Of a stretch of 64,000 bases of DNA, positions 7,389 through 50,251 are shown piece by piece. Below the pieces are notes generated by a model. The model made no database searches. It was not told the origin of the DNA and saw only the letters and a program-made list of their open reading frames with translations. A program made the translations under genes and the position numbers. Source of the stretch: an uncultured Bacteroidales bacterium (GTDB taxonomy: Bacteria > Bacteroidota > Bacteroidia > Bacteroidales > Paludibacteraceae); assembly GCA_900317745.1 (NCBI GenBank), contig ONHW01000002.1, forward strand, positions 62,001 through 126,000, in the 5' to 3' direction. Each line of letters opens with the position of its first letter. Positions within the stretch are counted from its first letter, which is position 1.

Positions 7389-7423
7389 ATTTACGATTTG
7401 GTTATTTACGATTTACGATTTGG
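7389..7423 (+). repeat. Tandem 7-mer array, ATTTACG family
   Basis: Degenerate contiguous heptamers (ATTTACG, ATTTGGT, TATTTAC and variants) begin six bases upstream of the DeoR-gene start codon, inside its predicted 5' leader. Related arrays touch start codons at 27255, 35958 and 39374. Confidence 0.75.
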
Positions 7424-7443
7424 TCAAATGGCTAATTCGGGTG

Positions 7444-7475
7444 CAAAATTACAAAAAAAAATCCATATTTGCAAA
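7444..7475 (-). promoter_or_regulatory. Promoter of the DeoR-family gene
   Basis: On the minus strand TTTG (7475-7472), 20 nt, then TAATTTTG (7451-7444), a close match to the Bacteroidota consensus. The leader of about 55 nt contains the heptamer array. Confidence 0.7.
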
Positions 7476-7481
7476 TAAAAA

Positions 7482-7584
7482 GTTTCGTTTGTGCTTTTCG
7501 AAACATTGCGAAACGGTTGTATTAAGGGTTTCGTTTTTTGTAATATATTGAAAATATATGTGTTAAGTGGTGGTGTTTCGAAAA
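7482..7584. promoter_or_regulatory. Candidate DeoR operator cluster in the divergent region
   Basis: Five TTTCG/CGAAA motifs: GTTTCGTTT (7482), TTTTCGAAAC (7495), GCGAAAC (7508), GTTTCGTTTTTT (7528) and GTTTCGAAAA (7575). DeoR-family proteins such as AgaR bind direct TTTC-rich repeats. A -7-like TAACTTTG at 7634-7641 faces the amidohydrolase gene without a clear -33 box, as expected for a regulated promoter. Assignment is inference from motif and position. Confidence 0.45.
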
Positions 7585-7706
7585 TATGTTATAGAGCATA
7601 TCTTTTGACACCTGAAAATTGCAAAATTTTTTGTAACTTTGCAGCCGAAAAAATAAAGCGTGTAGTATGTTTTCGTACGCGCTTTGGATATAAACCATTG
7701 ACTGAC

Positions 7707-8801: not shown

Positions 8802-8810
8802 TAGAGATAA

Positions 8811-8837: not shown

Positions 8838-8843
8838 AAAGTT

Positions 8844-10811
8844 ATGAAAAAAGTCCTTTATCTTTTATCTTTGAGCGTAGCGGTCATTTGTCTTGCTTCT
8901 TGCCAGCCGAAGCAGGAGACAGAGCGACTGATCTGTGCCGAAGCCGACATGCAGGAGTTTCCCTATCAGCGTGACGGGCTGCATGTGATCAAGCAGCAGA
9001 CCGTGACGAATGTGGACGGAGTGCCGGGATTGCAGGTGGTAGAGACGCAGTTCATCAACCTGGGCAAGCCTGTGACCGTCAAAGCATACGAGCTTTGCCG
9101 CACGGCTGTTGAGGCGAAGGAAGATGTTGTATGGTCGCTTCAGCCGAGCAGCACGAGCGCACGTATGGACTGGGTGCTGCCGGTGAAGGAGGGTTTCCAG
9201 AAAGACAACTACCTGGGCATGAACAATACCGATTACGGCGGAGGTATACCTGTTGTGGATCTCTGGCAACGTGACGGTGGTCAGGCTATCGGTCTGTTTG
9301 AGCCGGTGCTGCGAATGATTTCGATGCCTGTGGAGTGGAAGCGCTACGACAACAAAGTGACCATGGCGCTGCATTATGACCTGCCTCAGTCGGTAGAGTT
9401 GGCACAAGGCGATACACTGAAATGCTTCAAGGCTTTCCGCCTCAGCCATAAGGGTGACTACTTCAATGCTCTGCGCATCTTCTCCGACTATATGCAGGCT
9501 AACGAAGGCGTGCAGATGAAGCCGTCGGAGCCGCAGGCGTTTGAGCCTGTATGGTGCGCATGGGGTTACGGTCGTCCGTTTGAAATGAAGATGGTATTAG
9601 GCACACTGGACAAGGTGGCTGAATTAGGTTTCACTTGGGTGGACATAGACGACGGTTACCAGATAGCCGAAGGCGACTGGAACACCAACGAGCTGTTCCC
9701 CGGCGGTGACAAAGATATGCGCCACATAACCGACGAGTGCCACAAGCGCGGATTGAAAGCCAAACTATGGTGGGCACCGCTGGCAGCCGACCCTGATACG
9801 AAGTTGGTGAAAGAGCACCCTGAATATTTGCTCAAGACAGAAGAGTGGGCGCACGAATATATCACATGGTGGGACAGTTGGTATTTGTCGCCTGTGAATC
9901 CGGGTGTAGATGCCTATACGAAAGACCTGTTGGATATGTTCCTGAACAGATGGAACTTCGACGGTTTGAAGATTGACGGTCAGCACCTGAATTGCTGTCT
10001 GCCCGACTATAACGAGACGTCCGCATTGGAGAGCCCGTGGGATGCGCCGGAGCAGATGCCTACGTACTTCGGCAAGATCTATGACCAGGCTCGCCAGTAC
10101 AAACCCGATGCAGTTATTCAGGTTTGCCCGTGCGGTTGTGCGGTGAACTACTTCCTTGTTCCTGAGATCAATCAGGCTGTGGCTTCTGACCCGATGTCGT
10201 CGCGTCAGGTGCGTATGAAACGCAAAGCATACGCCGCTATGGCGCCGGAGCTGGCATACTACGGCGACCATGTTGAATTGACGGACGGAGGCAACGATTT
10301 TGCTTCGCAGATTGGTACGGGATCGGTTATAGGCACAAAGTTCACTTGGCCCAAAGACAACCCGAACTGGAAAGAAGGTCCGTTCCTGCTGACACCGGAG
10401 AAAGAAGCACTCATCCGCAAATGGATGAAGATCTATAAGGAGAACAACCTCGCCCGCGGCGAGTACCTGAACCTCTACACATGGGGTTACGACTATCCGG
10501 AGGCGCATGTTATAAGAGTCGAAAGTCAAAAGTCGAAAGTCGAAAGCGCAAAGGATGCAATGTATTATGCGTTCTACGTTGATCCTATTGCTCCGGAAGG
10601 TGCGATGGATCCGGCGCATGTGGATGCAGCAACAGTGCCTGTTCCTTCTTATAAAGGTACGTTGGAACTCCGCGGACTGGAGCCCGGCAAGACGTACACT
10701 GCCATCGAGTATGCCGCCGATGAACCCAAGGAGTTCACCGTGGACGGCAGCAACCCGAAGATTGAAGTGGACTTTGAGCGGAGTTACTTGCTCAAACTTG
10801 TTGAGCAATAG
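8844..10811 (+). CDS. GH36-type alpha-galactosidase lipoprotein
   Basis: 655 residues with lipobox LASC (Cys20). The TIM barrel carries WCAWGYGRPF, then WVDIDDGYQ; the candidate nucleophile is D378 in GLKIDG and the candidate acid/base is D449 in ASDPMSSR, as in family GH36/GH-D retaining alpha-galactosidases. It would release terminal alpha-galactose from oligosaccharides, probably in the periplasm. Residues 558-570 (RVESQKSKVESAK) are encoded by a 7-bp tandem repeat and look like an insertion in a C-terminal loop. The gene lies 42 bases after the amidohydrolase and 114 before susC, with the same orientation. Specificity for alpha-galactose rather than alpha-N-acetylgalactosamine is inferred from the family. 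Confidence 0.88.
   Translation: MKKVLYLLSLSVAVICLASCQPKQETERLICAEADMQEFPYQRDGLHVIKQQTVTNVDGVPGLQVVETQFINLGKPVTVKAYELCRTAVEAKEDVVWSLQPSSTSARMDWVLPVKEGFQKDNYLGMNNTDYGGGIPVVDLWQRDGGQAIGLFEPVLRMISMPVEWKRYDNKVTMALHYDLPQSVELAQGDTLKCFKAFRLSHKGDYFNALRIFSDYMQANEGVQMKPSEPQAFEPVWCAWGYGRPFEMKMVLGTLDKVAELGFTWVDIDDGYQIAEGDWNTNELFPGGDKDMRHITDECHKRGLKAKLWWAPLAADPDTKLVKEHPEYLLKTEEWAHEYITWWDSWYLSPVNPGVDAYTKDLLDMFLNRWNFDGLKIDGQHLNCCLPDYNETSALESPWDAPEQMPTYFGKIYDQARQYKPDAVIQVCPCGCAVNYFLVPEINQAVASDPMSSRQVRMKRKAYAAMAPELAYYGDHVELTDGGNDFASQIGTGSVIGTKFTWPKDNPNWKEGPFLLTPEKEALIRKWMKIYKENNLARGEYLNLYTWGYDYPEAHVIRVESQKSKVESAKDAMYYAFYVDPIAPEGAMDPAHVDAATVPVPSYKGTLELRGLEPGKTYTAIEYAADEPKEFTVDGSNPKIEVDFERSYLLKLVEQ
10515..10553 (+). 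repeat. Intragenic 7-mer array, AGTCGAA family (GH36 gene)
   Basis: AGTCGAA-type heptamers in frame inside the GH36 gene, coding residues 558-570. The same heptamer recurs at 37498-37528 and, as seven clean copies, at 50196-50244. Confidence 0.85.
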
Positions 10812-13900: not shown

Positions 13901-13973
13901 TCTTGCAGGTTTCTACTCTGAGAACTATCCCGTCGGCCGTACTTTCCAAGGCGGTATAGAAATATCATTCTAA
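10926..13973 (+). CDS. susC: SusC/RagA-family TonB-dependent outer-membrane transporter
   Basis: 1015 residues: signal peptide (MKRFPAILLSLMLAVSAFA), a carboxypeptidase-regulatory-like domain (about 22-100; GVSILVQGTTQGTITDFDG), a plug (about 110-215; LRIRGTGSI and PVYVVDGV) and a 22-strand-type barrel ending in EISF. It forms the outer-membrane channel that imports oligosaccharide together with the SusD lipoprotein encoded 40 bases downstream, powered by TonB. No N-terminal anti-sigma STN domain is present, so it does not signal through an ECF sigma factor; this fits the DeoR-type regulator upstream. Family certain, substrate inferred from the neighbouring glycosidases. Confidence 0.96.
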   Translation: MKRFPAILLSLMLAVSAFADINVKGKVIDADGSEPLIGVSILVQGTTQGTITDFDGNFEISVPDKAVLQFSYIGYKTIEVRAVASMQVIMESDAQQLQEVVSLGYSAVKKAELSSAVVTVSAEQLTDVTSSDIGNMLQGKVAGLTVSNASGQPGDAAQLRIRGTGSITAGSEPVYVVDGVMGGTFNPNDVETISVLKDAGSTGIYGAAAAGGVIVVTTKSGKKGDKVHVDLRATAGAKQALFGNFRMMKSEELYNFHKSMYSPVAFSVSYPALEELVDWNWQNEFFKTGVVQNYNVAVHGGSEHVGYYVSLDYFGEQGTFRKTGMQKVSGHASLKADITKWLDMNIKVDFAKSTVDYPSTWTMMADAYGKMPWDCPYVYDENGNITNKFVRVENGTRPDNNGKWWSQETWNSLHSSEYNYSKGDNFDFSGVLQLGVHFTDWLHFTTTNTFGAGHYLSTSYVDPRVYDTSYKDGYVGKSVGMSKSFGTTNILKGGYQWDKHSFNAMVGFEYGLWRTEYVSASGIKMPNGMDVLNVSSMYGVGGYDIPGASWAAFIQASYDWNKRYFITATYRAEASSIFAPNHRVGHFPSVAASWLISNEDFMKGQDIVSFLKLRASYGITGNNNIPAYKYLSTYTFTNLIGGGATLLYEGEVGAMPSRLANPVLHWETANMAAVGIDLSFIKRINMSIDLYQTDNTGLLLNVPVAPSTGFYEVMQNIGSVRNRGIEYSIDANVINIGKWRWDIGFNIGFNQNRVTSLPHTEDDPNKGAFNQTENSVNQRVMEGHDIYTWYIKEWAGVDPANGDPLWYCVDDKGNYILDGEGNKTTTNDYNGTLAHAVGTATPLFTGGLNTTVSWNGIFLHLNSNFQYGNKIYNYTRHAYDADGAYLGYNQLSIENSPLGWKRWTAEDPNGATHPKAKLSGNLSSNQPSSRYLEDGSYFRLKNLTVGYDFPAQLISKAKMTKCRIYFSADNLFTATKFSGMDPEIRMDGGTGNLAGFYSENYPVGRTFQGGIEISF

Positions 13974-13994
13974 TGTGTAAAGTGTAATGTGTAA
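13974..13994 (+). repeat. Tandem 7-mer array, TGTGTAA x3
   Basis: Three contiguous heptamers (TGTGTAA, AGTGTAA, TGTGTAA) begin immediately after the susC stop codon, in the susC-susD gap. The array contains an in-frame ATG (13987) that lengthens the susD frame artificially. Confidence 0.8.
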
Positions 13995-14013
13995 TAAATT
14001 AATATTTGAGATT

Positions 14014-15729
14014 ATGAAAACAAAAGCATTATATTTAACCGCAGCACTCGGAATGATGCTCGGTTTGGGCAGTTGCAGTCTCAACTATTTCCCTTCTGAT
14101 GAGTTGAATAGCGAGGCATTGCTGCAAGACGCAAAGGGCGCAGAGTATATTATGAACGGTTGTTATGCTCTATTGAAAGACGAAGTGGAATTCTTAGGAT
14201 ATGCATCTGGAAACTGCTATGCGCGTCATTATTTTCAACTAACGGAGTTCCCGTCGGATAACATTTGTTTGTCCGCACACACGACAGACCCATTGTATGA
14301 GGCTACAACCTATACAATGAATGACGGTCTGAAGAATGTAGGTACTCTATGGATGGTGGGATATAAAATCATTTATATGACCAACCAAGTTATCGAGACT
14401 TTGGATGCCAGCAAACCGGAAAACCAACAATTGTTGGGCGAAGCATATTTCATGCGTGGCATGATGCATCTTCATATGGTGACATTATATGCAAAGCCTT
14501 ATTCGCATGGTCGCGATAATCTGGGAGTGCCATTGAGAATCTCATGTGATGCGTCTGTTACAAAGCGTAATTCGGTAGGCGAGGTATATGATCAGATAGC
14601 TGCCGATCTCCGCAAGGCTGCAGACTTGATGGGCAAATCCCGCGGTGATGCAGGCTATCCGTGCAAAGAAGCTGCGCTGGGTATTCTGAGCCGTGTATAT
14701 CTCTATATGGAAAACTGGGACAAGTGTATTGAGACTGTGGATGAGGCGCTCAATGGCGCTGATCCTACTTCCAAACTGGAACCCTCTGCTACATTTGCAA
14801 CATATTTCCAGAACGCAAGAGATTCTAAAGAGACATTGTTCTGTATTGCACATGAATTGACAGATAACCGCGGTCAGTCTTCGATAGGCTCAATGTACCT
14901 GAAAGATGGTATAGGATGGGGAGAGATTTATCCTTCTGACCCGCTGAAGTACCTCTACGAGCGTTATCCGGACGATATCCGTTATCAGGATTTTCTGGTT
15001 CCTCAATACAAGGCCGGTTCAAGCGATACTTATGTGTATTATCCGGATCCTGCATCTATCAAGGAAGATCAGGGTAGCGTATTGCTGAAGGCGAAAGTCA
15101 CTACAGATGGTGAGGGAAATTATACCTTCAAGGATGTAAATAAAAATACTGTTACCGTAGAGAAACGTAAAATTAACGGTGAAGGAAAAGCGGATGCAGC
15201 GGGTGAGTATATTGAGTATTTTGTGAATATTGACGGAAAAGACTTGATGTGCCGCATAGCTCCAGAGATGGTACTTCGTACCGGATTCAGTTATCCGATG
15301 ATTTTTATCAACAAGTTCAGTTATCAGAATGCTGACCCGATGTTGAGCTCTCCTGTACTTTGCCGTTGGGGTGAGGTCATTCTCAACCGTGCCGAGGCGT
15401 ATGCACACAAGGGCATGAAAGCCGAGGCATTGGCTGATGTTGATGTGATCCGTAAGCGTGCAGGCATTCCGGAAGAAGGTATGTTCTCCAGCAATATGCA
15501 CGGCTATGACAATGCATTGAACATCGTTCTCGACGAGCGTCGTATGGAGTTGGCGTTCGAAGGACATCGAACGTTCGATGTATATCGTAACAAACTGAAT
15601 ATGGATCGCCGCTATCCAGGTGCACAGTTCTGGAAAATTCATGAGTGGGACAAGGAGCAGCATATTGTCTATCCTATTCCTAACAACGAATGGACGGTAA
15701 GCGGAATTCCGCAGAACCCGGGTTATTAA
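14014..15729 (+). CDS. susD: SusD/RagB-family glycan-binding lipoprotein
   Basis: 571 residues from ATG 14014. This start was chosen because it gives a lipoprotein signal with lipobox LGSC (Cys21); the longer frame begins inside a heptamer array. SusD hallmarks are the N-terminal TPR scaffold with GEAYFMRGMMHLHMVTLY near 145 and the C-terminal RKRAGIP and LDERRMELAFEGHR-type motifs. It caps the SusC channel from outside and hands it oligosaccharide. An Asp/Lys-rich insert near 360-410 may shape the binding face. Confidence 0.95.
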   Translation: MKTKALYLTAALGMMLGLGSCSLNYFPSDELNSEALLQDAKGAEYIMNGCYALLKDEVEFLGYASGNCYARHYFQLTEFPSDNICLSAHTTDPLYEATTYTMNDGLKNVGTLWMVGYKIIYMTNQVIETLDASKPENQQLLGEAYFMRGMMHLHMVTLYAKPYSHGRDNLGVPLRISCDASVTKRNSVGEVYDQIAADLRKAADLMGKSRGDAGYPCKEAALGILSRVYLYMENWDKCIETVDEALNGADPTSKLEPSATFATYFQNARDSKETLFCIAHELTDNRGQSSIGSMYLKDGIGWGEIYPSDPLKYLYERYPDDIRYQDFLVPQYKAGSSDTYVYYPDPASIKEDQGSVLLKAKVTTDGEGNYTFKDVNKNTVTVEKRKINGEGKADAAGEYIEYFVNIDGKDLMCRIAPEMVLRTGFSYPMIFINKFSYQNADPMLSSPVLCRWGEVILNRAEAYAHKGMKAEALADVDVIRKRAGIPEEGMFSSNMHGYDNALNIVLDERRMELAFEGHRTFDVYRNKLNMDRRYPGAQFWKIHEWDKEQHIVYPIPNNEWTVSGIPQNPGY

Positions 15730-18334: not shown

Positions 18335-18518
18335 AGACCGGCGCAAAGCGCCTGACAGAAGACAGACCGCTTCGCTGACAGAAGAGAGACCGCTTCGCTG
18401 ACAGAAGAGAGACCGCTGGCGCTGACAGAAGAGAGACCGCTTCGCTGAAAGACAAAAGACCGCAGCCAAACTTGGCTGCTGAGAGACAAAAGACCGTTTC
18501 ACTGAAAGATAAAAGAAG
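18335..18518 (+). repeat. Tandem array of about 23-bp units, GACCGCTTCGCTGACAG family
   Basis: Units start at 18354, 18377, 18400 (24 bp) and 18424, with diverged copies to 18518; the core is AGACCGCTTCGCTGACAG. One diverged copy contains the 18-bp palindrome GCAGCCAAACTTGGCTGC (18462-18479). The array fills the whole gap between two genes. Shorter members are inside comM (25096-25157) and glnS (27425-27470), near rpoD (34094-34149) and after the GH36 gene. Confidence 0.85.
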
Positions 18519-23814: not shown

Positions 23815-24285
23815 TCACGCCTTTTCGCCGGTCTGCTCCTGGCGCTTTTCTTCCTTCTCGAACTTGGAGAGGCGGTGCTTGAAGAAGATATTGATCATCA
23901 TGATTGCCAGGGTGCCGAGTATCGCCTCGGCGAACATTCCGAAGCCGCACAAGCCGCCAACGGCGGCGGCACACCAGACGGTGGCGGCGGTAGTCAGACC
24001 TTTGACGGAATCGCCGTCCTTGAAGATTATACCTGCACCCAGGAATCCTATGCCCGACACGACCTGCGCAATGATTCGCGAGTTGTCGCCGCCGAAGATA
24101 GTGGGTGACATCAGTACATACATTGTTGTGCCGATAGCAATGAGTGTGATAGTGCGCGTGCCGACAACCTTGCCGTGCAGTTCGCGCTCAATGCCAATCA
24201 GATAACCCAAGATGATAGCCATGCTAATCTTGGAGATTACTCCTATCCAATCGGTCTGGAGGAAGTTTTCGATGAGTTGATCCAT
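23815..24285 (-). CDS. MgtC/SapB-family membrane protein
   Basis: 156 residues with four or five transmembrane helices in the N-terminal 125 residues and a charged cytoplasmic tail. GYLIGIERELHGKVVGTRT and GIGFLGAGIIFKDG are the MgtC signature. Relatives aid survival at low Mg2+ or acid, in some species by inhibiting the F-type ATPase. A 37-base gap to the next gene holds a heptamer array. Family confident; physiological role here unknown. Confidence 0.9.
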   Translation of the reverse strand: MDQLIENFLQTDWIGVISKISMAIILGYLIGIERELHGKVVGTRTITLIAIGTTMYVLMSPTIFGGDNSRIIAQVVSGIGFLGAGIIFKDGDSVKGLTTAATVWCAAAVGGLCGFGMFAEAILGTLAIMMINIFFKHRLSKFEKEEKRQEQTGEKA

Positions 24286-24317
24286 GGTAGTTGAGAGTTG
24301 AGTGTTGAACGTTGAAC
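24286..24317 (-). repeat. Tandem 7-mer array, GTTGAAC/GTTGAGT
   Basis: Contiguous heptamers GTTGAGA, GTTGAGT, GTTGAAC, GTTGAAC (read on the plus strand) fill the gap between the mgtC start codon and the end of the comM-like gene. Confidence 0.85.
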
Positions 24318-24321
24318 GGGA

Positions 24322-27255: not shown

Positions 27256-27283
27256 TTAGTAATTTACCATTTAACTATTTGCG
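27247..27283 (-). repeat. Tandem 7-mer array, ATTTACC family
   Basis: ATTTACC, ATTTAGT, AATTTACC and ATTTAAC-type units straddle the start codon of the HsdR_N-like gene and fill most of the 39-base gap to glnS. Partly degenerate. Confidence 0.65.
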
Positions 27284-29904: not shown

Positions 29905-29949
29905 ATTTACGATTTGATGATTTGCGATTTACGATTTTGTTATTTACTG
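29905..29949 (-). repeat. Tandem 7-mer array at the lpxC-lpxA junction
   Basis: ATTTACG, ATTTGAT, GATTTGC, GATTTAC and TATTTAC-type heptamers fill nearly all of the 57-base gap between lpxC and lpxA. In most Bacteroidota a fabZ domain is fused to lpxC at this point. Confidence 0.8.
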
Positions 29950-35205: not shown

Positions 35206-35958
35206 TTAGGCGCAGATGTGCTTAAGAACGAGCGAGGCGAGCAGGTTGCCGAAGATAACGGTGATGTGCGCCAGTGTACCGTTAGGGACACCCCGCTGCG
35301 TGTTATTTGCGGGAATCCCAGTGGCGGGATCGGGCGATTTGTAAGCATTAGGCAGAACCTCGTCGCTATATACGCACAGGAACTTGCGGGCAGGGAAGAC
35401 GCCTGACTGCTTGAACTTATGGCGCAAGGTGCGCGCCAGCGGGTCGCCTTCCACCTTACGGAACTCTGCGGTACGAATTTTTGCCGGGTCGAACTTGCGC
35501 GCCGCGCCCATGCTGCTGAACAGTTCGGTATGCGGCAGGCGTGTCACGGTGTTGATGAGCAAGGCTTTGTCGGTCAACGAATCGATGGCGTCAATCACGT
35601 AATCATATTCGCTCAGGCGAAAACTGTCAGCCGTGTCGGCATTGAACCTGCCGTACACGGTGCGGATATCCGCGTCCGGGTTGATGAGTTGCAGGCGCTC
35701 GCGCAGCACCTCGACTTTCGGCTGACCGATGGTGGCGGTGGTTGCCATGAGCTGGCGGTTGATGTTCGAGGCAACGACCTCGTCGCCGTCCACCATAGTA
35801 AGATGACCGATGCCCGAGCGAATAAGCGTCTCTGCACACCACGAGCCCACGCCGCCCACGCCGAAGATGATCACGCGTGCTGTGGCTATACGCTCCATCC
35901 GTTGCTGACCAAGCAGCAATTCGGCGCGCTGAAAGATGTCAGGGAAACCGGTTGTCAT
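35206..35958 (-). CDS. tcdA: tRNA threonylcarbamoyladenosine dehydratase (TcdA/CsdL)
   Basis: 250 residues of the ThiF/E1-like superfamily: the nucleotide-binding GVGGVGSWCAETLIRSG (about 33-49), DGDEVVASNINRQ, DAIDSLTDK, and the C-terminal GTLAHITVIFGNLLAS. TcdA cyclises t6A37 to ct6A in tRNA. Residues 214-224 (GIPANNTQRGV) are encoded by the 31-bp dispersed element also found after the GH36 gene. The frame is preserved and the insert falls in a loop just before the final helices. Confidence 0.92.
   Translation of the reverse strand: MTTGFPDIFQRAELLLGQQRMERIATARVIIFGVGGVGSWCAETLIRSGIGHLTMVDGDEVVASNINRQLMATTATIGQPKVEVLRERLQLINPDADIRTVYGRFNADTADSFRLSEYDYVIDAIDSLTDKALLINTVTRLPHTELFSSMGAARKFDPAKIRTAEFRKVEGDPLARTLRHKFKQSGVFPARKFLCVYSDEVLPNAYKSPDPATGIPANNTQRGVPNGTLAHITVIFGNLLASLVLKHICA
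35289..35319 (+). repeat. 31-bp dispersed element inside tcdA
   Basis: CACCCCGCTGCGTG, then TTATTTGCGGG and AATCCC: 26 of 31 positions match the copy at 10824-10854 (starts CACCCCACTGCATG, ends GGGGACCCC). A third, partial match is at 15810-15824. It is in frame within tcdA. Confidence 0.85.
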
Positions 35959-36012
35959 TTACGATTTGGCTATTTACTATTTACGATTTACTATTTACTA
36001 TTTTGCGATTTG
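35956..36012 (-). repeat. Tandem 7-mer array, TATTTAC/GATTTAC
   Basis: At least seven contiguous heptamers (ATTTACG, ATTTGGC, TATTTAC, TATTTAC, GATTTAC, TATTTAC, TATTTTG) start at the tcdA start codon and fill the gap to rodA. Confidence 0.85.
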
Positions 36013-36029
36013 AAAATGGATGCTCGGCA

Positions 36030-37484
36030 CTACAGCAGTTTGTTCAGGCGTTCGGAGTCGAGGCGCAGAAGCACAGCCAGCAGCAGGGTGAAACTGATCA
36101 TGGACGAGCCGCCGTAGCTGAAGAACGGCAGCGGAATACCGATAACGGGCAGCAAGCCCAGCACCATGCCGACATTGATTGTGAGGTGGAAGAAGAATAT
36201 GCCCACCACGCAATATGCGTATATGCGCGAGTAGTTGTCACGCTGACGTTCGGCAATCATAATCAGGCGTAAGATAAAGATCAGGTACACGATCAGCAGA
36301 CCTGCCGAACCAAGGAATCCCCATTCCTCACCTACGGTGCAGAAGATAAAGTCGGTGTCCTGCTCGGGCACGAAGCGCAGTTTGGTTTGGGTCCCCTTGA
36401 GGAACCCTTTGCCCGTGAACTGTCCTGAGCCAATGGCTATGAGCGACTGATTGACATTATATCCGGCACCGGCAGGGTCGTCCTTCAAGCCCAGCAGCAC
36501 TTCGATACGTGTGCGCTGGTGCGGCTGAAGCACTTTGTCGAAAACCATCGTACACGCCTCGCAGAAGATGAGCGACATGGCAACATACACCGTTACAAGC
36601 AGCAGCGAGAAGTGACGCCTGTAGATTATTACTGAGGTAAAGTACACCAGTGCCGAAAGCAGGGCAATCAGCGAGATGAGATTGAAGTTAACGGTGTGCC
36701 AGATATTGATGATCAGTCCTGCCGCGTACAACAGGATAACTATGCCGCACAGGATAAGCGAGTTCTTCCAGTCCTGCTCGTGCAACCACATAAATCCTAC
36801 CACTACCGCCATCAGCACCAGATAACAGAGCAACACGCCCACGTTGCCCTCGCCCCACGGCAGCGCTACGCCACCGAAACGGATGGAGCAGATGAACAGC
36901 AGCACAAACGACAATCCGCCCGTGAGCACGTAACCCGACATGCCGAAGCGGTAGAACATGATCAGGAACGATGCAAACACCAGTGCCGAACCTGTCTCAC
37001 GCTGCCATATCATGATTATGCCTGCGGGCAAAGCGAGCAGCATGACAGGCGTCAGCAGGTCGCGCCACGAGCGAATATGGTAGTCGTAATTACTCATGTA
37101 CTTCGCCAATGCCAGTGCGGTAATCATTTTAGCCAACTCCGCCGGCTGGAACTTAAGCGGACCTATATCTATCCATGACATTGATCCCTTGGTGTTGTGC
37201 GCCAGCAACGGCGTGGCAAGCAGCACCAGTATCCAGAAGGCGTAGATAAGATACGCTGTAACCTCGTAAGTTCGTCCCTCGATGAACAGCACGGCAATGC
37301 CCAATACGCAGGCAATGCCGATCCACAAGAACTGCTTGCCGGCACGGTTGCTCAGGTCGAACAGAGAGGTCTGGTCGAACGTATAACTGGCACCGTAGAT
37401 GTTCAGCCAGCCGAACAGGGCAATCACCAGAAAGAGGATGATTGTCCACCAGTCAAGACCTGATATGATACTGTTGCGAGTCAC
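36030..37484 (-). CDS. rodA: Rod-shape SEDS glycosyltransferase RodA
   Basis: 484 residues with about ten or more transmembrane helices; SEDS-family motifs include PAELAKM (about 118), ETGSALVFA near 185 and the C-terminal GILPVIGIPLPFFSYGGSSM-like segment (here beginning LGLLPVIGIPLPF). It polymerises lipid II into glycan strands for lateral wall growth with PBP2, encoded just upstream. It is longer than the roughly 370 residues of proteobacterial RodA, as usual in Bacteroidota, the extra length lying in the middle loops and helices. Confidence 0.95.
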   Translation of the reverse strand: MTRNSIISGLDWWTIILFLVIALFGWLNIYGASYTFDQTSLFDLSNRAGKQFLWIGIACVLGIAVLFIEGRTYEVTAYLIYAFWILVLLATPLLAHNTKGSMSWIDIGPLKFQPAELAKMITALALAKYMSNYDYHIRSWRDLLTPVMLLALPAGIIMIWQRETGSALVFASFLIMFYRFGMSGYVLTGGLSFVLLFICSIRFGGVALPWGEGNVGVLLCYLVLMAVVVGFMWLHEQDWKNSLILCGIVILLYAAGLIINIWHTVNFNLISLIALLSALVYFTSVIIYRRHFSLLLVTVYVAMSLIFCEACTMVFDKVLQPHQRTRIEVLLGLKDDPAGAGYNVNQSLIAIGSGQFTGKGFLKGTQTKLRFVPEQDTDFIFCTVGEEWGFLGSAGLLIVYLIFILRLIMIAERQRDNYSRIYAYCVVGIFFFHLTINVGMVLGLLPVIGIPLPFFSYGGSSMISFTLLLAVLLRLDSERLNKLL

Positions 37485-37497
37485 TTTGTTTGTTTTG

Positions 37498-37528
37498 TCG
37501 AAAGTCGAAAGAAAAAAGTCGAAAGCGG
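37498..37528 (-). repeat. 7-mer array, AGTCGAA family, mrdA-rodA gap
   Basis: GTCGAAAGTCGAAAG and AAAGTCGAAAG occupy the 51-base gap between the mrdA stop and the rodA start. The heptamer is the one inside the GH36 gene and at 50196-50251. Confidence 0.8.
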
Positions 37529-37535
37529 TTAAAAA

Positions 37536-39374
37536 TTATTCGGATGAGGGGTGGGTGAGTACGGCGTTGACCATTTTGTTGTAAATGTGTTTGCGCGTAA
37601 CGGTGCCGGTGAGGTACTGCTCCATCAGCAGCGAGGCGATTGGTGCTGCCCATGTGGCACCGAAACCGGCGTTCTCAACAACAACCGCCACGGCGATCTT
37701 CGGGTTGTCTTTCGGCGCAAAACCGATGAAGATAGCGTGATCCTTGCCGTGCGGGTTCTGCGCCGTACCGGTCTTGCCGCACATCTGCAGGGAGTCGATG
37801 TTGTACCAGCGACCCGTGCCGTTGGTCATCACGCGGTGCATACCTTCGGCTGTGAGGTCGAACCAGCGGGTGTCCATATCCGTCTCGTGCCGCAGTTCGG
37901 GATTAGTGGTGAGTTCGGTGTTCAGGTGCGGCGTGATATAGTAGCCGCGGTTGGCGAGCGTGGCTGCCTGATTGGCGAGTTGCAAGGGCGTTGCCAGCAC
38001 CTCGCCCTGACCTATACTGAGCGAGCGGATAGTGATGGCTTTCCAGCCTTTCTCACCGTAGGTGCGGTTGAAGAGCCGCTCGGCAGGAATGATACCCGGA
38101 GCCTGTTCGCCGATATCTGTTCCCTCAAAGCGGTTGCCGAGACCGAACTTCATCACATCGTTGCGCCAGAGGTTGTAGCGTTTGCGGAACGTGGCGTTGC
38201 CGTCGCCGTATCCGTCGCGCTGCAGCATGTCGCGGAACGCGCACCAGAAGTACGGGTTACAACTCTGCTCGATAGCGCCCAGCAGGTCAACTGGCGAACC
38301 GTGGTGGTGTGTACACTTGATAGGCGAAGAGCCCGGACCAGAGCAAGGGTACTTGGTGTGAGGCGTTATGCCGCCCTCCTGCAGGCAGATGACTGTTTGC
38401 AGGGTCTTGAATGTCGAGCCCGGAGGATAAGTAGCCTGCGTGGCACGGTTGAACAATGGTTTGGCAGGATCGTTAAGCAGGCGGTTGTATTGCGTTGAAC
38501 GCTGTTTGCCGACGAGAATCTCGGGATTCCACGTGGGTGAAGACGCCAGAGCAAGGATCTCGCCTGTGGCAGGTTCGATAGCCACAACGCTGCCAACTTT
38601 GCCCTGTAACATCTGTTCTGCGAGAGCCTGCAACTGAATATCCAGCGACAGGTGCAGGTCGGTGCCGGTGACCGCCTCAACATCTTCTGCGCCATCGTGG
38701 TAGGAGCCTTGGATACGTCCACGCGAGTCACGCATGATCACTTCGACACCTTTCGTACCGCGCAGGCGCTGTTCGTAGGTCCGCTCCAGGCCGTCGCGTC
38801 CGGCATAATCGCCCGACTGATAATACTCGTCGCGGTCGATATCTGCCTGCGACACCTCGCCTACCGAGCCGAGTATATGTGCCGCATAGGGGTAGGAGTA
38901 GCCGCGCAGCGTACGCTTGCGCATGCCAGCTCCCGAGAACTTGTAGGATGTTTCGCGCAGTGATGCCACCTCCTGCTTGGTGAGTTGCGCCATAAACACC
39001 TGCGGCGTGTAGGTCGAGAAGCCGCGGTTACGGCGTTTGTCCTTGATGGCATCTATACGCCGTGCAAACTCGAGACTGTCGATGTTCAGACATTGGCAGA
39101 ACGCTATGGTATCAAACCCGTGGCGCATCTCTTGCATGATAAGTGTGACTTCGTAGATAGGCTGATTGAACACCAGCAGCTCGCCGTTGCGGTCATAGAT
39201 TAGTCCGCGAGAGGGATAGACAACCTGGCGTAGCAAGGCGTTGTTGTCCGCCTTCTGCTTCTGCGATTGGTCAATGATCTGCAACCAGAACAGACGGATG
39301 ATAAATATCAGCACCACCAGCGCAACTGCTCCGGCGATGATGTACGGTCGTCTGCTGTAAGGATCATTGGTCAT
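37536..39374 (-). CDS. mrdA: Penicillin-binding protein 2 (elongation transpeptidase)
   Basis: 612 residues: one N-terminal membrane anchor (about 10-32), a dimerisation/pedestal domain, and a transpeptidase domain with the active-site serine in PPGSTFKTLQ, SxN motif EQSCNPYFW and KTGTAQNPHGKDHA. It cross-links peptidoglycan in partnership with RodA. In the order mreB-mreC-mreD-mrdA-rodA it is the standard rod-complex operon. Confidence 0.96.
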   Translation of the reverse strand: MTNDPYSRRPYIIAGAVALVVLIFIIRLFWLQIIDQSQKQKADNNALLRQVVYPSRGLIYDRNGELLVFNQPIYEVTLIMQEMRHGFDTIAFCQCLNIDSLEFARRIDAIKDKRRNRGFSTYTPQVFMAQLTKQEVASLRETSYKFSGAGMRKRTLRGYSYPYAAHILGSVGEVSQADIDRDEYYQSGDYAGRDGLERTYEQRLRGTKGVEVIMRDSRGRIQGSYHDGAEDVEAVTGTDLHLSLDIQLQALAEQMLQGKVGSVVAIEPATGEILALASSPTWNPEILVGKQRSTQYNRLLNDPAKPLFNRATQATYPPGSTFKTLQTVICLQEGGITPHTKYPCSGPGSSPIKCTHHHGSPVDLLGAIEQSCNPYFWCAFRDMLQRDGYGDGNATFRKRYNLWRNDVMKFGLGNRFEGTDIGEQAPGIIPAERLFNRTYGEKGWKAITIRSLSIGQGEVLATPLQLANQAATLANRGYYITPHLNTELTTNPELRHETDMDTRWFDLTAEGMHRVMTNGTGRWYNIDSLQMCGKTGTAQNPHGKDHAIFIGFAPKDNPKIAVAVVVENAGFGATWAAPIASLLMEQYLTGTVTRKHIYNKMVNAVLTHPSSE

Positions 39375-39402
39375 TTGCGATTTGGTGATTTACGATTGGC
39401 TG
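39372..39402 (-). repeat. 7-mer repeats at the mrdA start codon
   Basis: ATTTGCG, ATTTGGT, GATTTAC, GATTGGC-type units fill the mreD-mrdA gap and touch the start codon. Same family as 35956-36012. Confidence 0.75.
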
Positions 39403-39906: not shown

Positions 39907-39945
39907 AGTGGTCAGTGTTCAGTATTAAGTGTTCAGTTGTTAGCG
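39907..39945 (-). repeat. 7-mer-like repeats in the mreC-mreD overlap
   Basis: GTCAGTG, TTCAGTA, TTAAGTG, TTCAGTT-type units cover the junction and the last codons of mreC. Translated in the mreD frame they would give SLTTEHLILNTDHS, which looks like a repeat-derived extension. Confidence 0.6.
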
Positions 39946-40826
39946 ATTGAGTCAAGTTCTGCGCGCAGGTTATACTTCAGTACGTGCACGGTGCGAAGGC
40001 TGCGAAAGTCTGTTGCCAATTCAACATCAATGTCGTAGTAGGAATCACCCTCGCCGATAGATACGTCCGACACTACGCCTACCGGCATTCCTGCGGGGAA
40101 GATGGCACTCATACCGCTGGTGACGATCGAGTCGCCGACCTTGACATCGACGTGCCGTGCCACGTCCTCCAATTCGGCGTGCCGGATATCCGGCATGTGC
40201 CAGTGGAGCGTAGCCATGTAGTCGTTCTTGCCGATACGTGAGGAGATGAACAATCCCTCATGAATAACCGGTGCTACAACGGCAAAGTGTGTACTGACTG
40301 ACTGCACGACGCCCACTATGCCATCTTTGCCGATGACACCCATGTCGGGCGTTACTCCGTCGCGTGTGCCTTTGTTGAGGGTGAGGTAGTTGTGATGGCG
40401 GTCGTTGCTGAAGGCAATAACCCGTGCAGGAATGAAGGCATAATCCAGGTCAGACGGTAGGTAGAAAGTGTTATCCGTTATCGTCTCGTTATCGTCTCGT
40501 TTACGTGTCGTTAACGTGTCGTTTACGTGTTTGGGTCGAGAAAGGTAGCATTCGTTCTGCGTGATTTCGGCACGTAGCAGGTTGTTCTCCTGCAGGAGTT
40601 GTGCATTGTGCTCAAGGAGTTGTGCATTGTCGGAGCGCAGGCGGAAATAGGAGGTTACATTGTCGTTGGCGAGTTGAATGCTTGCCGTCACGGCATTGGC
40701 GGCGCCATCGGCTACCATCTGCTGATACTTGTTGCCACGGATGACAAAAATAAACGCAACAACTTCCAAGCCCACAAGGAGCAGGAAGTTGCTAAAGCGT
40801 ACTATCAGTTGCAGCAGGTTATGCAT
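39933..40826 (-). CDS. mreC: Rod-shape protein MreC with repeat-coded insertion
   Basis: 297 residues: one membrane helix (about 10-30), a coiled coil (about 55-90) and the beta-barrel domain pair (from about 125) with NYLTLNKGTRDGV and SIVTSGMSAIFPAGMPVG. It is the periplasmic scaffold of the rod complex. Residues 96-119 (around VNDTLTTRKRDDNETITDN) are encoded by five 11-bp tandem repeats plus flank, sitting exactly at the joint between coiled coil and barrel, a place that can tolerate length change. Confidence 0.93.
   Translation of the reverse strand: MHNLLQLIVRFSNFLLLVGLEVVAFIFVIRGNKYQQMVADGAANAVTASIQLANDNVTSYFRLRSDNAQLLEHNAQLLQENNLLRAEITQNECYLSRPKHVNDTLTTRKRDDNETITDNTFYLPSDLDYAFIPARVIAFSNDRHHNYLTLNKGTRDGVTPDMGVIGKDGIVGVVQSVSTHFAVVAPVIHEGLFISSRIGKNDYMATLHWHMPDIRHAELEDVARHVDVKVGDSIVTSGMSAIFPAGMPVGVVSDVSIGEGDSYYDIDVELATDFRSLRTVHVLKYNLRAELDSIANN
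40476..40540 (+). repeat. Intragenic 11-mer array in mreC, CGTTTACGTGT family
   Basis: Five contiguous 11-bp units (40476, 40487, 40498, 40509, 40520) followed by TTGGGTCGAG. The unit and the TTGGGTCGA flank match the intergenic array at 6501-6553. In frame within mreC. Confidence 0.92.
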
Positions 40827-43338: not shown

Positions 43339-44691
43339 CTATGAGCGAACAATTTCGCCCTTGAGTGTCGCGGCAGTTGCGGAAAGAATTTTGACATTAA
43401 CGAACTCTCCGATGTGTCGTCCTTCGCGCGGGAAGACGACTGTCTTGTATTGTGATGTTCGTCCGAACATATCTTCCCTGCTGCGCTTGGAGTATCCCTC
43501 GACCAGCACCTCGACCACTTTTCCCACTTCTCGCAGATTGCTCTCGAGCGAGAGGGTGTTCTGCAGGGCAATTATCTCGTTGAGCCGGCGTACTTTTTCT
43601 TCCTCGCTGACATTGTCGGGCAGATGTTTGCTGGCATAGGTGCCCGGGCGCTCGGAGTATTTGAACATGAACGCTGTGTCGAAGCCAACCTCGCGCATGA
43701 GTGATAGTGTCTGGGCGTGGTCGTCGAGTGTCTCGTCGTGAAATCCGCAGAACACGTCCGTTCCGATTGTTGCGTCGGGCACAATACGCCGTATGGCAGC
43801 AATGCGCTCGAGATACCACTCGCGTGTGTATTTGCGGTTCATGAGTTTGAGGATCTTGTTGCTGCCGCTCTGCACGGGTAAGTGGATAAACTTGCAGATG
43901 TTCGGGTTGTCGGCAATGACTTGCAAGGTCTTGTCGGACATGTCTTTCGGGTGCGAAGTGGTGAAGCGGATACGCATATCCGGCACGGCTTGTGCAACCG
44001 TTTGTAGCAGGTCGGCAAAATCAAGGGATTGACGATTTGGATATTTACCATTTACGATTTGGTCGGCTGCAGGTTGCCAGCAGTAGGAGTTGACGTTCTG
44101 CCCGAGGAGTGTGACCTCCTTGTAGCCGCGGGCCTGCAGGTCGCGCACCTCGCTAAGGATACTTTGTACGTCGCGTGAGCGTTCGCGTCCGCGTGTGTAG
44201 GGCACAACGCAGTAGGAGCAGAAGTTGTTGCATCCGCGCATAATACTAACGAACCCCGATATCTGTTTGCCCAGGCGTGCAGGCAGAACATCGGCGTAGG
44301 TCTCGGTGGTGCTGAGTTGCACGTTGATAGCCTGGTGCCCTTGCTCGCACTGAGCGATGAGGTTAGGCAGGTCGAGGTAAGCGTCGGGGCCGGCAACGAA
44401 ATCAACTTTGTAGTCGCGCAGCAGTTGTTCGCCCATGCGCTCCGCCATGCAGCCTATGACACCGATCATGCGGCGCTTGCCGTGCTTGCCGCCCGCCAAT
44501 TCCTGCAGGCGGTGCTGAACGCGTTGCTCGGCATTATCACGAATGGAGCAGGTGTTAAGAAGAATGATGTCCGCCTTGTTGATGTCGTCGGTGTAATCGG
44601 CATCGGTGGTTCGCAGGATAGCCGCTACCACCTCGCTGTCAGCCACGTTCATCTGGCAGCCGTAGGTCTCTATATAAAATGTTTTTGCCAT
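43339..44691 (-). CDS. miaB: tRNA methylthiotransferase MiaB
   Basis: 450 residues. UPF0004 domain with C12, C48 and C81; radical SAM motif C154-NNF-C158-SY-C161; C-terminal TRAM domain. It adds the 2-methylthio group to i6A37 of tRNAs reading UNN codons. Residues about 205-222 (WQPAADQIVNGKYPNRQS) are encoded by ATTTACG-family heptamers, in the variable loop between NVNSY and DFADLLQ, where other MiaB proteins have a short loop. Confidence 0.95.
   Translation of the reverse strand: MAKTFYIETYGCQMNVADSEVVAAILRTTDADYTDDINKADIILLNTCSIRDNAEQRVQHRLQELAGGKHGKRRMIGVIGCMAERMGEQLLRDYKVDFVAGPDAYLDLPNLIAQCEQGHQAINVQLSTTETYADVLPARLGKQISGFVSIMRGCNNFCSYCVVPYTRGRERSRDVQSILSEVRDLQARGYKEVTLLGQNVNSYCWQPAADQIVNGKYPNRQSLDFADLLQTVAQAVPDMRIRFTTSHPKDMSDKTLQVIADNPNICKFIHLPVQSGSNKILKLMNRKYTREWYLERIAAIRRIVPDATIGTDVFCGFHDETLDDHAQTLSLMREVGFDTAFMFKYSERPGTYASKHLPDNVSEEEKVRRLNEIIALQNTLSLESNLREVGKVVEVLVEGYSKRSREDMFGRTSQYKTVVFPREGRHIGEFVNVKILSATAATLKGEIVRS
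44028..44062 (-). repeat. Intragenic 7-mer array in miaB, ATTTACG family
   Basis: ATTGACG, ATTTGGA, TATTTAC, CATTTAC, GATTTGG-type heptamers, in frame in miaB. The same family touches start codons at 27255, 35958 and 39374. Confidence 0.85.
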
Positions 44692-48059: not shown

Positions 48060-48068
48060 CGTGGTGCG

Positions 48069-48851
48069 TCAGTTGGAATATTGGTGCGCCAGTGCATCAA
48101 AGGCTTTCGCCTGCGTGAGTATAGCGCGTATATCTGCGAGTCGAACCTGGTTAGCTGCATCGCTGATAGCATGGTCGGGGTCGGGGTGAACCTCGAGGAA
48201 CAATCCATCGATACCCACAGCGAGTGCGGCACGCATGAGTGGCGGAACAAGTTCGCGGTTGCCGCCTGTTATGCCTTGCTGGGAGGACGGCTGCTGTACG
48301 GAGTGAGTGGCATCGAAGATGACAGGACAGCCGTACTCACGCATCCGTACCAGTGAGGTCATGTCCACCACGAGATTGCCGTAGCCGAACGAGGAGCCGC
48401 GCTCCGTGAGCCAGACAGGTGCATCGGGGTTGGCGTCGCGGCACTTGCTGATAGCACCGCGCATATCCCAGGGGGCCATGAACTGACCTTTCTTGATGTT
48501 CACTATTCTGCCGGTACGTGCTGCGGCTTGCAGCAGGTCGGTCTGCCGGCTGAGAAACGCGGGTATCTGAAGAACATCCGCTACCTCGGCTACGGGTGCA
48601 CACTGACAACTCTCGTGTACATCGGTCAGGATAGGTAGTCCGAAACGCTGTTTGACTTCAGCCAATATACGCAGACCATCCGACATCCCCACGCCTCGCG
48701 AGGAGGATGAGGATGTACGGTTGGCTTTGTCGAACGATGACTTGAAATACAACTGAATGTCGAGATCACGACAAACCTGTTGCAGTTCGGCAGCGGTGTC
48801 GAGCACCATCTGCCTGCCTTCTATAGCACACGGGCCGGCTATGAGGAACAT
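48069..48851 (-). CDS. kdsA: Kdo-8-phosphate synthase
   Basis: 260 residues with the DAHP-synthase-type barrel: LIAGPCAIE at the N-terminus, YFKSSFDKANRTS near 36, LTDVHE, KKGQFMAPWDM and the FDATHSVQ metal and substrate motifs. It condenses arabinose 5-phosphate with PEP to Kdo 8-phosphate for the lipid A core. It lies three bases after an unrelated coiled-coil gene and nine before kdsD. Confidence 0.96.
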   Translation of the reverse strand: MFLIAGPCAIEGRQMVLDTAAELQQVCRDLDIQLYFKSSFDKANRTSSSSSRGVGMSDGLRILAEVKQRFGLPILTDVHESCQCAPVAEVADVLQIPAFLSRQTDLLQAAARTGRIVNIKKGQFMAPWDMRGAISKCRDANPDAPVWLTERGSSFGYGNLVVDMTSLVRMREYGCPVIFDATHSVQQPSSQQGITGGNRELVPPLMRAALAVGIDGLFLEVHPDPDHAISDAANQVRLADIRAILTQAKAFDALAHQYSN

Positions 48852-48854
48852 GAC

Positions 48855-50162
48855 TTAGTGCTTATATGCCTTGAACCAATCGATGGAAACGGAACCGGTG
48901 CCTTTGACATCCTTCGGCAGGAACTCGATGATAGCCGGGAAGACTTTTGTGCCCAGTTTGTTAGCGGTGCGTGCTACCTCCTGGTTGTTGACGTACCAGG
49001 TGATGTCGGACTTGGTGATGTTCACGCTGTAAACGTACTCTTGACCTTCCTTGAGCCCCTCAACTACTGTCAGTTCCTCAAACTGCGGGTAAGTAACACC
49101 AACAGTAATCTTCTGTCCGTCCCACTGTGCGATACGAAGAATAGGCAGACGATCCTCGCTCATCAGGCAGATAGCACCATTGGCTTTACCCTTGAATGCA
49201 GCTTTGACCTGAATCATTCCTTCGTCAAGGCGGAACTTGTCGGCAGTCTGAATGATATCGCCGGTGTAGTCGAAGTCAGTCATGATGAAACCTTTCTTCT
49301 CGTCCCATGCGGGTGCGGTGGCGCGTTCGGCTTTCACCTCAACCACCAGACGGCTGTCGATAGTGTTGACGTTACGACCATTGTTCATGGCGGCACCTTC
49401 GTTGGTGTAGGAGTGGTTGGTCTTGAGTTTGGCGTTGCCGTAGTGGAAACCTGCTTTCCAAGGCGAATCCTGCATTCTGTTCCACTCGCAAGCATCGGCA
49501 AAAATCTCCTGGAACGCTTCGTAGCGTTCAATCTGCTTGGGATCCTGGCTGAGGAAGAAAGCAATGTTCGACGAGTTCTTCAGAGCCTCGTACTTGCCGT
49601 CCTGCTGGCTCTGGAGAGTGGTGTACCAGCGCTTCTCGTTCTTCCAGAAGTGGTTGCGGTCGCGGAACTCCGTGTTGTTGACAATCTCGCGCAGACGATA
49701 ATACTCGCTTACTTCGTGCGAGGCTTTGTGTATGCGGTAACGCCTAACGGCGAAGGAGTTACCGAGTCGTTGCATCCGCTTGAGACGCGGATCAGCCTTA
49801 ACAGCCTCGGGGTCGTTGAGTTTAACAAAATCGCTTGTCTCGCTGAAGTGCTCGTACTCCTGTACTTTCTGCAAGCCGCGGTAGAACTTGAACCAACGCA
49901 GGTGGTGGCTGTTCTTGGCGCGCTCGTAGTCTTTGATCAGGCGATACTCTTCGCGATCTTTGTACCTGGTAGTGAGCAGTTCGTGTTTGTAGTCCTGAAA
50001 CTCTTTGGTCTCAACAATCTTCTGGAGGTTTCTGAACTCAGCCAGTTCGGAAGAAGCTTCCACATCGCGGTAGCGGCGTATGTCGTTGCTTACTTGGCGA
50101 AAGCGTTCCGCCATTTGTTTGGTTGTCAAGGTTTCAGCCTTGAGTTGCGTAACATGTTTCAT
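48855..50162 (-). CDS. Unknown coiled-coil protein with C-terminal jelly-roll-like domain
   Basis: 435 residues with no signal peptide or membrane segment. The N-terminal 230 residues are charged and helical, with repeated motifs (ELAEFRNLQKIVETKEFQDY, EVSEYYRLREIVNNTEFRDR) that suggest tandem helical units. From about 250 a beta-rich domain (DSRLVVEVKAE, GFIMTDFDYTGDIIQ, YVYSVNITKSDITWYVNNQE, GSVSIDWFKAYKH) resembles a GH16/concanavalin-like sandwich, but no catalytic ExDxxE is visible. It is three bases upstream of kdsA. A cytoplasmic structural or glycan-binding role is possible; I cannot assign one. Confidence 0.8.
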   Translation of the reverse strand: MKHVTQLKAETLTTKQMAERFRQVSNDIRRYRDVEASSELAEFRNLQKIVETKEFQDYKHELLTTRYKDREEYRLIKDYERAKNSHHLRWFKFYRGLQKVQEYEHFSETSDFVKLNDPEAVKADPRLKRMQRLGNSFAVRRYRIHKASHEVSEYYRLREIVNNTEFRDRNHFWKNEKRWYTTLQSQQDGKYEALKNSSNIAFFLSQDPKQIERYEAFQEIFADACEWNRMQDSPWKAGFHYGNAKLKTNHSYTNEGAAMNNGRNVNTIDSRLVVEVKAERATAPAWDEKKGFIMTDFDYTGDIIQTADKFRLDEGMIQVKAAFKGKANGAICLMSEDRLPILRIAQWDGQKITVGVTYPQFEELTVVEGLKEGQEYVYSVNITKSDITWYVNNQEVARTANKLGTKVFPAIIEFLPKDVKGTGSVSIDWFKAYKH

Positions 50163-50195
50163 ACGTATGTTGGTTAAATATTTATCGTTTTTTTT

Positions 50196-50251
50196 AGTCG
50201 ATAGTCGAAAGTCGATAGTCGAAAGTCGAAAGTCGAAAGTCGATAGTTGTG
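50196..50251 (-). repeat. Tandem 7-mer array, AGTCGAA/AGTCGAT x7
   Basis: Seven exact-phase heptamers from 50196 to 50244 (AGTCGAT, AGTCGAA, AGTCGAT, AGTCGAA, AGTCGAA, AGTCGAA, AGTCGAT) then AGTTGTG. This is the cleanest heptamer array in the window, in the gap between the LOG stop and the coiled-coil gene start. Confidence 0.95.

Follow-up and report, generated by a model that had tools for sequence, protein, structure and literature searches.

What generates the short tandem arrays of seven-base units that recur along a 64,000-nucleotide stretch of DNA from an uncultured Bacteroidales bacterium of the Paludibacteraceae, and is a function at start codons needed to account for them? The stretch (the window; positions 62,001 to 126,000 of contig ONHW01000002.1, assembly GCA_900317745.1, or C20:62001-126000) belongs to a genome of 2.60 Mb in 38 contigs and was itself chosen for its arrays. 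The results indicate that these arrays are probably neutral heptanucleotide minisatellites with fast turnover. Comparisons were made over 1.206 Mb (46%) of this genome, sampled in stretches that include the window, and over 0.719 of the approximately 2.1 Mb of a sister genome, G181 (about 120 contigs), which belongs to the same genus but to a separate species, each species being represented by one genome. G181 was 98% identical to the window genome over a 2.3-kb stretch and 69–96% identical over others, some of these being only 69–81% identical. The MiaB-type protein encoded in the window had its nearest counterparts in Paludibacteraceae/Bacteroidales metagenome bins, at 88% (a bin from goat reticulum) and 86% identity. 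Gene calling relied on a simple hexamer-based scorer, which places starts approximately.

An excess of period 7 was evident throughout the sample. Thus, 105 period-7 arrays were counted in the 1.206 Mb as opposed to 0.0 in three shuffles of 300-base blocks, which bears out the genome-wide excess expected in an earlier note on this DNA, while other periods from 4 to 30 gave 0 to 31 arrays (0, 0 and 3 for periods 4, 5 and 6), the runner-up being period 11 with 31 arrays of various units. In intergenic DNA from 464 kb of the genome, period-7 runs of at least 8 matches numbered 57 as opposed to 2.0 ± 1.3 after dinucleotide shuffling, and periods 14, 21, 22 and 11 were likewise elevated (46, 31, 32 and 28, respectively). 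Three 50-kb stretches (150 kb) of Escherichia coli K-12 contained no period-7 arrays, whereas random sets of seven stretches of approximately 20 kb from the present genome contained a mean of 11.7. Array density was about 87 per Mb, a value possibly inflated by non-random sampling, since early contigs of the present genome were picked from array matches and many G181 contigs from repeat matches. Period 7 was also the leading period in 17 loci assigned to Paludibacteraceae on the basis of label or MiaB similarity (27 arrays, the next commonest period having 6 arrays) and in 27 loci assigned to Prevotellaceae by label (32 arrays, the next commonest period having 11), in both cases with units that mostly differed from those of the present genome. 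In another 36 Bacteroidales loci, period 7 (9 arrays) was exceeded by period 22 with 19 arrays and period 21 with 10.

Changes in array length were determined from 27 clean orthologous loci, identified from 21 of 104 arrays in the present genome and 17 of 63 in G181, 11 loci being found from both sides. Sixteen of these loci were intergenic, and 11 of the 16 contained homologous arrays with no more than 10% substitutions between flanks of 94–99% identity. The alignment gaps of at least 5 bases in these 11 loci were of 14, 8, 21, 6, 35, 7, 28, 35, 28, 21, 14 and 35 bases, 10 of the 12 being divisible by 7; the remaining 5 intergenic loci held different or strongly diverged sequence (20–54% substitutions). 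Array lengths are therefore not fixed among these relatives but differ by whole units, as is characteristic of a variable number of tandem repeats in close genomes, the comparison here being between species. At the 11 coding loci, 6 alignments were gapless, 2 contained a gap (21 bases in one, 63 in the other) and 3 involved different sequence, so that the shifts of reading frame associated with phase variation were not seen among them. The array in a melibiase-like gene of the window, which fell outside the flank filter for the 27 loci, was 63 bases longer in G181. Among 132 orthologous gaps between genes, length differed in all 18 that contained an array as opposed to 44 of the 114 without one (37 of the 73 array-free gaps of at least 30 bases). 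An artefact of assembly or binning might be suspected from the fragmentation of the two genomes into 38 and about 120 contigs, but is barely credible given that the arrays are short, that their flanks align in two separate genomes and that most differences between homologous arrays are exact multiples of the unit.

Fourteen sites in the window had been listed in the earlier note. Tandem Repeats Finder (TRF), used with a score cut-off of at least 30, reported period 7 at 10 of them (7404, 10517, 13971, 24289/24304, 27247, 29905, 35957, 37497, 39907 and 50196) but not at the other four; 23643, 41890 and 44028 gave no call at that score and 39372 gave period 15 (7+8). The second detector, our own period-7 match score, recognized period 7 at 9 of these sites when its lenient threshold was applied, including 44028 but missing 27247 and 39907, and 5 places in the window passed its stricter, genome-wide threshold. 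The arrays, reported by TRF unless otherwise indicated, were as follows.

7389–7425 (exact 7404–7421), no strand: ATTTACG-type array in a divergent intergenic gap, reading CGTAAAT on the minus strand; the G181 counterpart shows gaps of 14 and 8 bases.
10517–10547, plus strand: AGTCGAA array within the melibiase-like coding sequence 8844–10811, encoding RVESQKSKVES.
13971–13996, plus strand: TGTGTAA/AGTGTAA array at the 13-base gap ahead of 13987–15729, overlapping the called start; GGTGAAA/ATTGAAA-type sequence in G181, with flanks of 73–75% identity.
24288–24318, no strand: GTTGAGN/GTTGAAC array in the 36-base gap between the MgtC-family gene 23815–24285 and 24322–25938.
27246–27280, no strand: degenerate ATTTACC array with periods 7 and 15, reported by TRF only and below the match-score threshold.
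29905–29937, no strand: degenerate ATTTRCG array between the minus-strand genes 29125–29901 (LpxA-like, Pfam) and 29959–30867.
35957–36013 (strict 35970–36003), no strand: ATTTACK array between 35206–35958 and the FtsW/RodA gene 36030–37484; unrelated sequence in G181.
37497–37525, no strand: AGTCGAA array between the FtsW/RodA and penicillin-binding-protein genes; 15 bases longer in G181.
39367–39397, no strand: degenerate ATTTRCG array of period 15 (7+8) at the start of gene 37536–39374, with no period-7 call by match score.
39907–39937, no strand: degenerate AGTGTTC (ACTGAAC) array, below the match-score threshold; a 108-base CGACTWT array in G181, with flanks of 94 and 80% identity.
44043–44060, minus strand: ATTTACS stretch in the MiaB-type coding sequence 43339–44691, in the variable loop after GQNVNSY, detected by match score with no TRF report.
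50194–50249, no strand: AGTCGAW array of about 7 units between 48855–50162 and 50259–50798; shorter by exactly 21 bases in G181.

Placement of the arrays relative to genes was examined over the whole sample. Seventy-three of the 105 arrays were intergenic and 32 were coding, which corresponds to an intergenic density 17.9 times that in coding DNA. A concentration at gene boundaries, as the earlier note had put it, thus stands as far as enrichment between genes is concerned, although 3 of the 14 listed sites lie within called coding sequences. The accompanying link to start codons, strong in the first list, was gone once compared with a null expectation. For 59 arrays in gaps between co-directional genes, 26 were nearer the start, 30 were nearer the upstream stop and 3 were tied (p = 0.69), and the median distance from array to start was 24 bases compared with 25.1 for random placement. 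The initial impression can be attributed to the shortness of the gaps (median 96 bases).

These results bear directly on a regulatory interpretation, in which the arrays would be repeated sites near starts for an RNA- or DNA-binding protein such as S1, a cold-shock protein or another. Such a reading was proposed by MacGregor for TAACTGA repeats (PMC4679880; this and the other papers are cited from excerpts). Besides the first list, in which many arrays adjoin a start codon, it draws on the presence in each family of a single free column with the rest of the unit fixed, which recalls a recognition sequence, and on a lean in orientation for some units in gaps, the sense to antisense counts, all small, being 16:6 for GTTGAG in co-directional gaps (1:6 in genes), 0:4 for ATTTACG (1:1 in genes) and 0:4 for TTCAG. 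However, starts were not preferred over stops, AGTCGAA was found in a 3:3 ratio of orientations between genes, 32 of the 105 arrays were within called coding sequences and the family of array varied at some places between close genomes; a regulatory origin for these arrays is accordingly regarded as highly improbable.

Arrays within genes gave evidence of filtering. Genes with arrays included those for the MiaB-type protein, alanyl-tRNA synthetase, 3-dehydroquinate (DHQ) synthase, a FemAB-like protein and DNA polymerase I, and in G181 a TonB plug protein. In the DNA polymerase I gene (C20:144115-145998; L004:18115-19998), the array, of AGTCGAA units, lies between the exonuclease and polymerase parts and is polymorphic, G181 being 21 bases shorter. 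No stop triplet was present in any sense frame of 24 of the 32 coding arrays as opposed to 9 of the 59 arrays in co-directional gaps, and AGTCGAA within genes was in the sense orientation in 11 cases and antisense in 1. Arrays in genes are thus filtered with respect to frame and stop codons.

Across the 1.206-Mb sample, the 105 arrays used 42 of about 1170 possible unit classes, the commonest class accounting for 15 arrays, and 295 pairs of arrays shared a class as opposed to 9.9 expected from random intergenic heptamers (500 draws, maximum 28), an excess of about 30-fold. AGTCRAW, GTTGAGN and ATTTACG were families that recurred at unlinked loci, so that the units, described as unrelated in the earlier note, are better described as few units recurring at many places. 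AAAGTCG (equivalent to AGTCGAA) was the top array unit yet ranked 280th of 1173 in array-free intergenic DNA; intergenic arrays had a GC content of 31.5%. Columns within units, like units between lineages, were compared in a smaller, 843-kb sample of the present genome together with G181 stretches, 80 relatives being added for part of the work. Each family contained one free column, the others being nearly fixed. Thus, 41 of 66 deviations within GTTGAGN arrays were in the last column and, among 43 arrays with at least 3 deviations, 131 of 199 deviations were in the top column of the array as opposed to 80.4 expected (2000 simulations, maximum 93). Duplication of a variant unit by slippage can also pile deviations into one column. 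A "5+2" unit with two adjacent free columns, suggested by eye, was rejected; for arrays with 2 to 4 variable columns, free columns were adjacent in 4 cases compared with 4.6 expected in the present genome (p 0.77), in 2 compared with 6.3 in G181 (p 0.999) and in 6 compared with 4.3 in relatives (p 0.19). A common register was noted at array ends, 20 of 28 AGTCRAW arrays and 38 of 61 NGTTDAG arrays (first base free) ending two bases into the next unit, while 44 of the latter 61 began at a unit edge.

The excess of period 7, the occurrence of several unit families and the length differences between close genomes together indicate a shared generating process, as had been suggested from the window. 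The independence of the units that went with that suggestion did not hold up; because units coincide and the end register is common, copying or common descent is also needed within a family. Arrays of one family accordingly look related via copying, beyond their common period. An independent origin of each array, in which the polymerase slips on a seed that arose locally by chance and 7 is its preferred slip length (an idea that PMC4679880 and PMC4692102 attribute to Mrazek 2007), would account for gaps in whole units and for the lead of period 7 in Prevotellaceae and other Paludibacteraceae loci, where units are mostly other ones. As sole cause, independent slippage is nevertheless unlikely in view of the 30-fold excess of unit sharing at unlinked loci, the common end register, the different sequence found at some orthologous loci and the array in the melibiase-like gene, which substitutes for native bases instead of growing out of them.

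The distribution of unit patterns was followed in other Bacteroidota genomes. Three successive GTTGAGN units were found in 12 of 295 other genomes and the backward control in 9, the pattern standing out in the present genome only (88 overlapping matches, control 2). Similarly, three AGTCGAW units were found in 10 of the 295 genomes, whereas the control AGCTGAW was found in 17, with up to 26 matches in one; corresponding counts in the present genome were 60 and 0. A genus-specific vocabulary of units recognizable across the phylum was rejected on these grounds, backward controls being about as widespread as the patterns. Judged by such matches, vocabularies vary by lineage, and the GTTGAGN and AGTCGAW patterns are not phylum-wide marks. 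ATTTACGATTTACG was present in 17 of 61 genomes (the present one counted) and its control in 0. Arrays of three AGCTGAW units are in their own right frequent in a different family of Bacteroidota, f48 (for example, G364, G320 and G301).

Birth and replacement of arrays could be followed at single loci. For the melibiase-like gene (best 30 of 84 genomes with a match), 28 of the 30 orthologs read had a short, array-free loop of QN type, and the AGTCGAA array was found only in the present genome and G181, where it takes the place of about 13 bases present in the closest ortholog without an array. Orthologs of the MiaB-type gene in L154 and L159-L163 had the loop WEK(D/E)G-VIDF with no array, while in other species the same loop held other heptamers, CCAACAG in L073 and ACTCAAC in L115. 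In L127, from an uncultured Prevotella, the MiaB loop contained a GC-rich, palindrome-like repeat, CCCCTCCC...GGGGAGGG, where others hold heptamers.

The two carriers among 30 melibiase-like orthologs would also fit a small mobile or dispersed element, similar to a miniature inverted-repeat transposable element (MITE) or to a short tandemly repeated repetitive (STRR) sequence, as the cyanobacterial heptanucleotide repeats are named, with heptamers as its body and active insertion. Sharing of units and register and the dozens of matches in G181 to one array of the window are compatible with this idea. In contrast, neither a longer module in common nor a fixed length emerged from a census of intergenic 14-mers, in which inverted ends and target duplications were not formally sought; those 14-mers that recurred outside the heptamers were promoter-like or palindromic or belonged to 23-bp repeats. 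A few loci share flanks, but the idea that the arrays belong to a longer dispersed element was rejected because the census showed no such module. An inserted element is considered very unlikely.

The loop of alanyl-tRNA synthetase (best 30 of 167 genomes with a match) showed different arrays at a shared site. A period-7 stretch was recorded at the lenient threshold, for which the chance rate was unmeasured, in 15 of the 30 genus genomes read (the present one and G181 counted), with about nine unit types, some differing by one base. The present genome carries ATTTACG and G181 carries AAAGTCR at this site, although their 150-base flanks are 93–97% identical (97 and 95% on the side preceding the loop, 96 and 93% on the side following it) and the two genomes are paired in the gene tree (99/99). 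By eye, the loop of the present genome resembles that of G066, whose flanks are less similar (87 and 75% before the loop, 92 and 79% after). Import of the loop together with its flanks from a G066-like source was rejected, since the flanks go with those of G181. Loop length, counted by eye, was 25 residues in 10 of 15 array-bearing and 10 of 15 array-free sequences, as would be seen if sequence were overwritten in place. On a less probable reading, an active, sequence-choosy process in Bacteroidales, templated or driven by an enzyme and distinct from plain slippage, would write and overwrite heptamer arrays at any unconstrained stretch of the genome with a lineage-specific vocabulary.

The reading preferred here remains that of neutral minisatellites with fast turnover, and may be outlined as follows. 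Slippage at replication would alter array length in steps of 7 bases and is inferred to be the engine of the whole-unit changes described above. In E. coli, loops of 7 bases exceed the size that MutS can repair, and slippage here may escape repair in this way. The presence of MutS domains in the genome led to rejection of a cause in lost mismatch repair. Unit families would be copied to many places, as the shared units and common register of array ends imply, the carrier probably being template switching or recombination over very short tracts. Selection would keep nearly anything in intergenic gaps and, within genes, would retain arrays in tolerant loops, mostly without stop codons and with length steps in multiples of 21 bases. 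A function at start codons would be unnecessary.

Several observations weigh against this account. Two of the 12 gaps, those of 8 and 6 bases (the latter adjoining a gap of 1), are not multiples of 7. At 8 of the 27 loci, different or strongly diverged sequence occupied the place of the array between flanks of 92–97% identity, and the carrier of sequence exchange at these 8 loci was not seen. Because the loop of alanyl-tRNA synthetase is like that of G066 while its flanks are like those of G181, any tract of recombination there must be very short. Pure slippage leaves the single free column per family unexplained, and this column could reflect sequence-specific generation or a constraint from binding. 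The counts for GTTGAG, ATTTACG and TTCAG, though small, would be compatible with a preferred orientation in gaps.

In relation to described systems, the arrays are a pronounced example of an already known type of repeat and not a new system, an excess of heptamers in Bacteroidetes having been published already. The statement in the earlier note that no Bacteroidales equivalent had been described is contradicted by the TAACTGA heptamer arrays that MacGregor (2015) reported from five Bacteroidetes, Paludibacter propionicigenes among them, as well as from Beggiatoaceae and Cyanobacteria (PMC4679880) and by a survey in which the Bacteroidetes median for the repeat class 7n3 was 0.75 and those for 4n4, 5n4, 6n3 and 8n3 were 0 (PMC4060949). 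In a 2025 survey, repeat density was high in Bacteroidota and units of 6–9 bases were enriched in a subset of prokaryotes (PMC12699852). Like the heptanucleotide long simple sequence repeats of prokaryotes, as described in those excerpts, the present arrays show over-representation of period 7 and a mostly intergenic location and may be assigned to that class on both counts; they differ in being imperfect, in comprising several families with units shared across loci and in having a turnover measured against a close genome. No paper on heptamer turnover in Bacteroidales was found among the open-licence literature matches listed.

Resemblance to the TAACTGA repeats, as excerpted, extends to heptamer arrays beside genes with a few inside genes and to presence in Paludibacter, and that study also noted other heptamers in some Bacteroidetes and close relatives that share a gene pair without the repeats (PMC4679880). 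A single TAACTGA unit was found within an array of the present genome (L002:15467-15510). That study was concerned with one unit, and main-genome sets were mostly just upstream of a start, whereas here no single unit was dominant among the 42 classes and no preference for positions just upstream of a start was seen. The repeats GGGAATC and GGGGA(C/T)T, described from Xanthomonas and Nostoc, are likewise heptamers, mostly intergenic, at the same gene pairs in relatives and variable in length and sequence, but are G-rich with quadruplex potential, unlike the A+T-rich intergenic arrays described here, and show strand-dependent distances to genes where the present arrays show no bias to start or stop (PMC4692102). 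Calothrix, another cyanobacterium, has several heptanucleotide tandem units per genome, a likeness drawn from the description only (PMC4692102). The tandem repeats of Borgs are also fast-evolving and both intergenic and genic, those that keep the frame creating new protein regions; their genic units are divisible by three, whereas a 7-base unit stays in frame through changes of 21 or 63 bases (excerpts of PMC9879509).

A preference of bacterial minisatellites for period 7 is an idea of 2007 of which we know of no test. This lineage makes the question testable, as it has MutS and, in the sample, an array density of about 87 per Mb, and as whole-unit differences separate it from a close sister genome. 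The arrays also represent a route by which repeat DNA may enter the loops of housekeeping enzymes (MiaB type, alanyl-tRNA synthetase, DHQ synthase and DNA polymerase I), filtered by frame and stop codons, and could become typing markers for these bacteria.

Other repeats were noted in the course of the work. The commonest intergenic 14-mers of the present genome were promoter-like GCAAAGNTACAAAAAAAA sequences, which presumably agree with the TAnnTTTG box of Bacteroidetes. A 23-bp tandem repeat, CTGACAGAAGAGAGACCGCTTCG, occupies window positions 18352–18463, with dozens of dispersed relatives in G181 and similar arrays in the sample of the present genome; the BrickBuilt MITE of Porphyromonas gingivalis contains a 23-nt minisatellite, the consensus printed in the excerpt of PMC4596501 being unlike CTGACAGAAGAGAGACCGCTTCG. 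Arrays of period 11/22, consisting of CGTTWACG plus three bases, were reported by TRF at 6493–6543 and 40476–40530 of the window. Finally, G186:C10:19177-20748 matched the window at 99% whereas G186 was otherwise mostly about 65–75% identical, which points to recent transfer or a mixed bin.

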